Program-made: the position numbers and the translations under genes
Virus record (IMG/VR): IMGVR_UViG_3300036768_001377
Coordinates: 1 to 31,523 of that record
Strand: one strand, 5' to 3'
DNA from: a virus
DNA length: 31,523 nucleotides
Shown here: positions 3,937-5,828 of the stretch, piece by piece
Numbering within the stretch: the stretch's first letter is position 1
How the letters are laid out: every line of letters begins with the position of its first letter
The notes under the pieces: generated by a model
Databases searched by the model: none
Seen by the model: only the letters and a program-made list of their open reading frames with translations
What the model was told of the DNA's origin: nothing

Positions 3937-4218
3937 CTATGAGTGATGCTGGCCAAAGTCGTTCTGCATCCTCCGTTCAAGCCGTGCCTGCTCGTCCCGC
4001 ACCGCGGCGAGGACCTCGGGGTAGATGAGCTGCAAACGCATGAGCAGCCGCGGCAGGCTCGCCGACCGATAGCCGTCGGCCATCAGAAGGTGCAACCCGG
4101 CCAGGGCCCCCGACACGAACGCCAGATGCAGCGACTCTCGCTGCGCCCGACCTGCCCCCGCGGGCACGACCTGGTGCTCGAACTCACGCCATTCACGGTC
4201 GATCGCTCGATCAGGCAT
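3937..4218 (-). CDS. 93-aa unknown protein
   Basis: ATG 4218 (MPDRAIDREWREFEHQ) overlaps the stop of the upstream gene by 8 nt, so I prefer it to ATG 4233. The protein is mainly helical: a short acidic/basic N-terminus, a hydrophobic helix near residues 31-50 (LHLAFVSGALAGLHLLMADG) that is rather short and mixed for a membrane span, and a charged C-terminal helix (VLAAVRDEQARLERRMQ). No family recognised. It is the last gene before two strong hairpins, so probably the end of the transcript carrying the pilin-like gene. Confidence 0.55.
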   Translation of the reverse strand: MPDRAIDREWREFEHQVVPAGAGRAQRESLHLAFVSGALAGLHLLMADGYRSASLPRLLMRLQLIYPEVLAAVRDEQARLERRMQNDFGQHHS

Positions 4219-4414
4219 GGGTGCCCCTCCCATTGCGCCTGCGCCTCCTGGCCTCGCGCCTCTTCGTCTCCTGGCTCATCCCCAGATCGTCTCCCAGAGC
4301 CTCGCTCAGTTCTCGGCCTGACGGAGCCTTGAAGCCGTGCATCCACGCGCTGGTCTTGAGGGCACGCACGATCGCGATGCGCCGGGCCAGTTCTTCTGCT
4401 GACAGGTCAGTCAT
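4211..4414 (-). CDS. 67-aa unknown basic protein
   Basis: The start overlaps the stop of the pilin-like gene (ATGA at 4414-4411), and its own stop overlaps the start of the next gene, so it sits in a tightly coupled trio. The sequence is acidic and helical at first (LSAEELARRIAIVRALKTSAW) and ends strongly basic (KRREARRRRRNGRGTHA), which suggests nucleic-acid or membrane-surface binding. I do not recognise it. Confidence 0.55.
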   Translation of the reverse strand: MTDLSAEELARRIAIVRALKTSAWMHGFKAPSGRELSEALGDDLGMSQETKRREARRRRRNGRGTHA

Positions 4415-5670
4415 GGCTCACCTCGCTGTGCCGCGAGAAAAGGGGCCGAGGGATTGGCCGCGTCGAAAGACTCCAGGTGGTGCACGGAGACGCGCCCGGT
4501 GCGGGCGTGGATGCTCACCAGCCTCCGCTCGCCCTCCAGGGGAGGAGCCATGGACGGCCGGCCAGGAGTGCCGGAGGGCATCGGCAGATAGGGCGGGCCC
4601 GACGCGGCAGGCGCGGCGATCGCCCCCCTCTCACAGACCCACAGGTGCACGAATGCCGCGGCCATCGGCAGGCTCGCCGGCGTGCTGTAGAGCATCTGCT
4701 GGACCAGCGAGCCATCCGGGTTCACCAGCAGCTCGACGACCCCCGTGTAGGGATCCAACAGGCAGCGCGAGCGCTCCCGCGAGGTGGCCCAGGTGGTGCA
4801 GTCGATGACCACGCCTGCGGGCAGCCCCTCGGCCAAGGCCGAGGGCACGGGTGCCGGCCGCCGGCGGATCACGTAGGGCACCGCCGTCACGCCCCCGGCG
4901 AGCGCCGCGTCCCAGACCTCGGACTCCCATTCCATCGCATCGTCCACGGCACCGTTGAGGTCGTTGTCGATCCCGTCAAAGCCGTCGTCGGTGTAGCCAT
5001 CGCCGTCGTCGTCGCGGCCGTTGACAAGAAACAGGAACTCAACCGGCCCCTGCCCGCGGTCCAGAATCGAGGGCGTGCCCGGCGGCCCGGCGTTGACGAA
5101 CATCTCGACGTTGCCCGCCGCCGGCCCGATCGCCATGGGGCCGACCACGGTGTACTGACGCCCGCCGCCATTGATCCGAACCCGCTCGCCGACGCGGACG
5201 TTCCACCACCACGACGTGGGTGCGGCGGACAGGCCCCGGGCGTCGCGGGGCGCCTGCTCCAGCAGCAGGCACGGAAAGGGGAGCGCATAGCCTGAAGGCG
5301 GACCGGAAACGATCGAGACCAGTCCCTCGGCGTAATCCGCCGCTGGTGCCATGACCACCCACGAGCCCAGCGCCAGAGGTGCGGACGGATCCAGCCTCCC
5401 ATCCGTCAGCCGAACCAGAGGGATGCTCGGGTCCGGCAGCAGCCGAATCCCCGCCGGATTCCCCGTCAACGCCGCTCGATCCCGCGCCGCGACCAATGCC
5501 GCCTGCAACCGGCTCACGGCCCCCACCACTTGCCACTCCCCCAGGCTCGTGACCACCGTGGGGATCACCACAATCGAGACCAGCGCGACGATCACGATGA
5601 CCACCAGTAGCTCCACCAGCGTGAAACCGCGCCCCTGCCGGCGCGACCGGATTCGCCACCTCATCCACAT
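4411..5670 (-). CDS. Type IV pilin/pseudopilin-like protein (prepilin N-terminal methylation motif)
   Basis: With start ATG 5670 this is a 419-aa protein. A basic leader [12 protein letters not shown] is followed by [20 protein letters not shown]: the prepilin peptidase site after G15, glutamate at +5, and a hydrophobic helix of about 20 residues. Type IV pilins and type II secretion pseudopilins share this plan, anchoring in the inner membrane and assembling through the helix. The large globular part is unlike minor pilins of 150-200 aa. Residues about 217-244 hold an Asp-rich DxDxDG-type calcium-binding stretch ([17 protein letters not shown]). An in-frame ATG at 5886 has a good AAGGAG ribosome site but would add a 72-residue extension. 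It lies between the candidate origin and regulator genes of a phage, with no other pilus gene present. Confidence 0.8.
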   Translation of the reverse strand: [419 protein letters not shown]

Positions 5671-5723
5671 CCACTGGCGCCAGCCGTCGGCCAGGTAGAG
5701 GCACACCCACAGCCGCCGATGTC

Positions 5724-5828
5724 TTACCCACGGGTACTCCACCACCACAGCAGTGACGCGATGCGCACCACGCACGCGACGATCCCCACCCCCAGCATGT
5801 AGACCCGGATCTCCCTGAAGGCCCCCAT
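5724..5828 (-). CDS. 34-aa single-span membrane peptide
   Basis: ATG 5828 follows a G-rich stretch (GGGGGTGGGTGA) that can serve as a ribosome site. The peptide begins MGAFREIRV, continues as a hydrophobic helix (YMLGVGIVACVVRIASLLWWW) and ends STRG. Its stop is 54 bp before the preferred start of the pilin-like gene. If the pilin-like gene began at 5886 instead, this frame would lie entirely inside it. The amino-acid make-up of this frame is far more protein-like than the overlapping one. Possible roles: small holin, pilin partner or assembly factor. All are inference. Confidence 0.45.
   Translation of the reverse strand: MGAFREIRVYMLGVGIVACVVRIASLLWWWSTRG

Follow-up and report, generated by a model that had tools for sequence, protein, structure and literature searches.

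A phage genome of 31.5 kb encodes a large prepilin that resembles a minor pilin and carries two tandem calcium-type loops, directly downstream of a gene for a tiny membrane peptide. Comparison with related viral contigs indicates that these two genes, the tiny membrane protein and the pilin, are the conserved unit. We consider it slightly better than even (probability about 0.55) that they form a moron, or lysogenic-conversion, cassette feeding a minor pilin into the type IV pili or type II pseudopilus of the host, with reduced infection by competing phages as the most plausible result.

Phage genome and pilin locus

The window, that is, the whole stretch of 31,523 nucleotides analysed here, is an IMG/VR virus record. 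Its genes include those for a portal (PHROG 145, E=1e-30), a major capsid protein of the SU10 type (PF17236, E=1.5e-42), two tyrosine recombinases and an ERF recombination protein; searches for tRNAs and RNA families found none. The features discussed below are:

2-862 and 30887-31522, minus strand: terminase gene, split over both contig ends, with counterparts in a relative's terminase
2360-3376, minus strand: tyrosine recombinase nearest the pilin, at 1 kb (PF00589, E=4.8e-15)
3937-4233, minus strand: 98-aa ORF, probably phage backbone, no family match
4211-4414, minus strand: 67-aa ORF, phage backbone gene coupled to the pilin by ATGA, with a 45% homologue in the pilin-less relative L065
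4411-5670, minus strand: gene of the large prepilin, similar to minor pilins and with two calcium-type loops in tandem (N_methyl, GspH model, at least ten phage homologues)
4940-5013, minus strand: Asp-rich loop segment of the pilin, residues 218-241 counted from ATG 5664, with DxDx(D/N)GxxD at 218 and 233
5724-5828, minus strand: tiny membrane peptide of 34 aa, conserved pilin partner by GC3 and by its place upstream of 9 of 11 pilins
5911-6166, no strand assigned: repeat-rich candidate origin, phage backbone outside the cassette, with ACCGTC-core repeats also found in L065
10618-11631, plus strand: second tyrosine recombinase (integrase), 5 kb from the pilin; its relatives adjoin the pilin gene of five other phages
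24661-25761, minus strand: protein matching a major tail protein family and, over the cut-off, the Pfam FCCH domain of ubiquitin-activating enzyme E1

The record is classed as linear, with a left end corresponding to residues 106-379 and a right end to residues 381-609 of a relative's terminase. Because both ends meet within one terminase gene, the genome is circularly permuted with almost nothing missing, which makes the record a practically complete temperate phage genome. The same junction excludes host flanks. Phage genes also lie on either side of the pilin, and we therefore reject an assembly chimera; the initial annotation had placed the pilin inside a phage genome and had named host flanks only, an assembly artefact, as a finding that would count against it. 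Its placement of the gene between a candidate origin and lysogeny-type genes likewise agrees with the position found, between the repeat-rich region and a recombinase gene.

The start codon of the pilin is uncertain (ATG 5664, ATG 5670 or further upstream, the frame being open to 5964). A class III signal, with basic leader, G|FTLVE and hydrophobic helix, had been read from the sequence and is borne out by a Pfam N_methyl score of 29.3 bits, above the cut-off of 21.2; N_methyl matches all 12 aligned members. Loss of signal or helix in close relatives, which was to weaken the annotation, did not occur, as both are kept in all ten relatives.

What had been described as an Asp-rich calcium-type loop resolves into two tandem DxDx(D/N)GxxD motifs, at residues 218-226 and 233-241. 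When the pilin sequence was shuffled, at least one motif arose in 0.16% of trials and two motifs in 0 of 20,000. The first loop is present in 11 of 11 pilins (the window and ten homologues) and the second in 7 of 11, versus 4 of 365 other proteins carrying the motif in the same phages. Residues D218, D219, G223, D226, D233, D241, E245, E247, E249 and W251 are invariant in the homologues, and by their calcium-type motif the loops are probably calcium-binding sites. Residues 146-252, which hold PTSW(F/W)WN and the Asp-rich segment, are 47-63% identical to the window pilin. The corresponding figures are 41-63% (signal and helix), 35-47% (residues 66-145) and 35-46% (C-terminal third). The loop domain is the best conserved region of the pilin family, which we count in favour of a moron cassette. 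One homologue (L079, 1549-2346, minus strand) stops right after the Asp loops and misses the C-terminal third, as a short form or through decay. The Asp-rich segment is absent from a further related phage pilin, L096. This protein was considered as a cellular-type pilin and dropped, given that a tape-measure-like gene, recognized by eye, adjoins it and suggests a phage; L096 is therefore no evidence for a host origin.

The ORF proposed as a tiny membrane peptide just upstream of the pilin is present and looks coding, with a GC3 of 0.89 in its own frame versus 0.51-0.54 at its other codon positions. By a fixed rule on hydrophobicity, size and codon bias, 9 of 11 pilins have a small membrane ORF immediately upstream, versus 4 of 239 other genes of these records, with a slight bias towards pilins through a search window shifted for three long-leader pilins. 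By eye such an ORF precedes all 11, L083 and L095 being the two that fail the strict rule. The window peptide is 52% identical over 23 aa to that of L095. Overall, the upstream peptides fall into a few similar pairs and not one clear family, which counts against the cassette reading.

On the downstream side the ATGA coupling is real, in that the pilin stop codon TGA (4413-4411) and the start codon ATG of the 67-aa ORF overlap. The 93-aa protein of the initial annotation exists as an ORF, but it is 98 aa long, the 93-aa version starting at an internal ATG. The proposed trio of pilin, 67-aa and 93-aa genes does not hold up in other phages: a 67-aa homologue adjoins the origin in a phage without a pilin, the genes downstream differ in other carriers, and we rejected the 67- and 93-aa genes as pilin partners. 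That phage (L004/L065, a 30-kb record) is the only relative that spans the locus. Its helicase is 59% identical, the candidate origin with ACCGTCTAC repeats in the window is matched by ACCGTCAGC repeats at the same place, and the 67-aa homologue follows the repeats; despite the same origin and flanking genes, no pilin was found in it. Nor was a pilin found in 17 other portal-related records, most of which are fragments. Measured against this one relative, the pilin gene is best described as a moron-type insertion in the phage backbone.

Distribution in other viruses

At least ten distinct pilin homologues occur in other IMG/VR contigs, the records being 20 to 107 kb long. A first viral scan with the window pilin alone as query gave no match, and the homologues were found by a degenerate DNA pattern followed by alignment-based scans. 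Isolate phages and plasmids gave no pilin homologue, and a genome scan led to nothing but a normal secretion operon of Dokdonella. The carriers have at least four terminase types (PHROG 979, 38, 2 and 9). Six carriers have an identified terminase and a seventh a tape-measure protein; one protein each was tested in G026 and G027, with no match, and G025 gave a weak match. One pilin-carrying phage was recovered from two samples, and in both its pilin gene is intact. Judged by its IMG record number, carrier L092 derives from a sequenced isolate.

Each carrier record has one pilin. As the initial annotation had stated for the window, neither a prepilin peptidase (PF01478) nor an assembly ATPase (PF00437) was matched there or in ten related records, in which controls were detected. 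Because the records encode a single pilin and neither of these enzymes, host machinery would be used.

Three homologues have zinc-ribbon-like segments (CxxC...CxxC) in frame with the signal (L089, about 4080-4319; L092, 3476-3686; L093, 1502-1853). L092 has an intervening ATG. In L089 and L093 the segment enters the pilin frame with no ATG, GTG or TTG shortly before the signal, and since no start codon separates the two, a long cytoplasmic leader of 70-100 residues is possible; these two prepilins seem to have one.

A PF00589 recombinase lies within 2.6 kb of the pilin in seven of the eight records that have one (p about 2e-5 for random placement), a figure that relies on a limit chosen post hoc, on gene ends partly placed by eye and on records treated as linear. 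Two tyrosine recombinases per phage are also seen in G021 and G029. In G020, G023, G025 and G030 the pilin gene and the last tail gene face each other from opposite strands. Positions beside recombinases and after the tail genes are usual sites of lysogenic-conversion genes. Three observations count against the cassette reading: the recombinase near the window pilin differs in type from those beside it in most other phages, no tyrosine recombinase was found in three carriers, and the window cassette shares its strand with replication genes, making lytic-phase expression possible. A scan for sigma-70-type sites found nothing promoter-like or terminator-like for the cassette.

A separate pilin type, DUF1559-like by eye, is found in low-GC marine viral contigs (L027-L064, for example L036, L040, L044 and L047, and L097-L104), in which it adjoins apparent phage replication genes and sometimes occurs as two or three copies in tandem. 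As to the host of the window phage, we suspect planctomycetes, from GC content and from similar large pilins that we take to occur in that group.

Comparison with known systems

The minor pseudopilin GspH (TIGR01708) is the best named model for all 12 aligned phage pilins, over the first ~65 residues. The window pilin scores E=4e-11 and 43 bits in NCBIfam, short of the cut-off of 80, and all phage pilins with scores shown lie far below this equivalog cut-off; the Pfam GspH domain has no match in the aligned proteins. Compared with GspH, the window pilin is twice the size, has the additional Asp-loop domain and stands outside any secretion operon, with no type II secretion genes around it (a single pilin and no PF00437 or PF01478 in the records). 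The second model for all 12 proteins, over the same N-terminal region, is Verru_Chthon cassette protein D (TIGR02596), at 30 of 70 bits for the window pilin. The Verru_Chthon cassette is a bacterial pilin gene set, whereas here a single phage gene is found. Phage-borne pilins in general already have a catalogue entry (PHROG 3433, 'pilin', in the moron category) and seem common in several families. PHROG 3433 and PHROG 11596 are phage-borne and share the N-terminal signal, but their matches span 30-55 residues and leave the Asp-loop domain unmatched.

Prophage proteins that act on host pili include PfsE of Pf4, Tip of D3112 and Aqs1 of DMS3. PfsE, the smallest Pf4 protein, resides in the inner membrane, binds PilC and prevents superinfection, while Tip and Aqs1 bind PilB (PMC8764522). 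PfsE is a tiny inner-membrane peptide like the partner described here; however, all three are inhibitors of PilC or PilB and none is a pilin. The parts of a 2024 review of exclusion that describe pilus inhibitors do not include a phage-encoded pilin (PMC11436027), and in open-access papers we found no description of one of the large Asp-loop kind. In Vibrio, the ratio of minor to major pilin sets pilus dynamics (PMC13249403). Exclusion by pilus remodelling is plausible because of these precedents, PfsE, Tip and Aqs1 on the one hand and the pilin ratio on the other.

Proposed role and alternatives

The cassette reading is supported by gene structure, phage location, the loop, the signal, the membrane partner, the empty site in a relative, the spread among viruses and the proximity to recombinases. 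From these we infer processing, incorporation, calcium binding, expression in lysogens and an effect on other phages, along the following route. The prepilin would insert in the host inner membrane via its helix. Cleavage at G|FTLVE by the prepilin peptidase of the host would follow, and the cleaved pilin would be built in as a tip or minor subunit of a type IV pilus or a type II pseudopilus of the host. Its displayed domain would be stabilized by calcium at the tandem Asp loops, and the membrane peptide would perhaps act on the assembly platform. Assuming expression in lysogens, their pilus assembly, dynamics or surface display would change, with fewer infections by competing phages as the most plausible outcome. 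A more specific version, which we offer tentatively, is a mobile cassette that re-tips host pili with a calcium-dependent tip pilin and a membrane helper, in some phages with a prepilin bearing the zinc-ribbon-like long cytoplasmic leader, such that superinfection exclusion results from subunit insertion, not from shut-off.

The main rival to exclusion is a benefit to the lysogen itself, in which the pilin alters how the lysogen attaches, forms biofilms or secretes and other phages are uninvolved. The same data on cassette and position agree with it, as do the large conserved surface domain and the single subunit, which is what an adhesive tip would be; nothing specific speaks against this alternative and sequence alone does not separate it from exclusion, yet we rate it as the less probable of the two, at the level of a reasonable minority view. 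A role in the lytic phase or in the virion, with the pilin acting in infection or release or as a structural protein near the tail, appears improbable. The gene directly follows the tail genes in four records and the window pilin is on the early-gene strand, but in those four records it lies on the strand opposite to the tail genes, its place differs from phage to phage but the association with recombinases recurs, and a virion protein would have no need of the prepilin signal. Far less credible still, and largely refuted, is the view that the gene has no role in the phage, being a host pilin gene captured by chance or an assembly chimera. Pilin genes are common in hosts and the L079 homologue ends right after the Asp loops, but at least ten phage homologues exist with conserved membrane partner and loop residues, the gene is intact in the phage recovered from two samples, and in the window phage genes flank the pilin in a circularly complete genome.

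Hence, we favour a lysogenic-conversion cassette that acts on host pili. Its recurrence in about ten different viruses, often beside an integration gene, suggests that the phage alters the host surface. So far, prophages have been known to switch off host pili by small inhibitors. If the proposed role is correct, the presence of a conserved pilin and membrane partner in unrelated phages implies that phages contribute pilus parts as well. The defined two-gene unit and its set of carriers, one apparently from a sequenced isolate, make prophage remodelling of pili directly testable.
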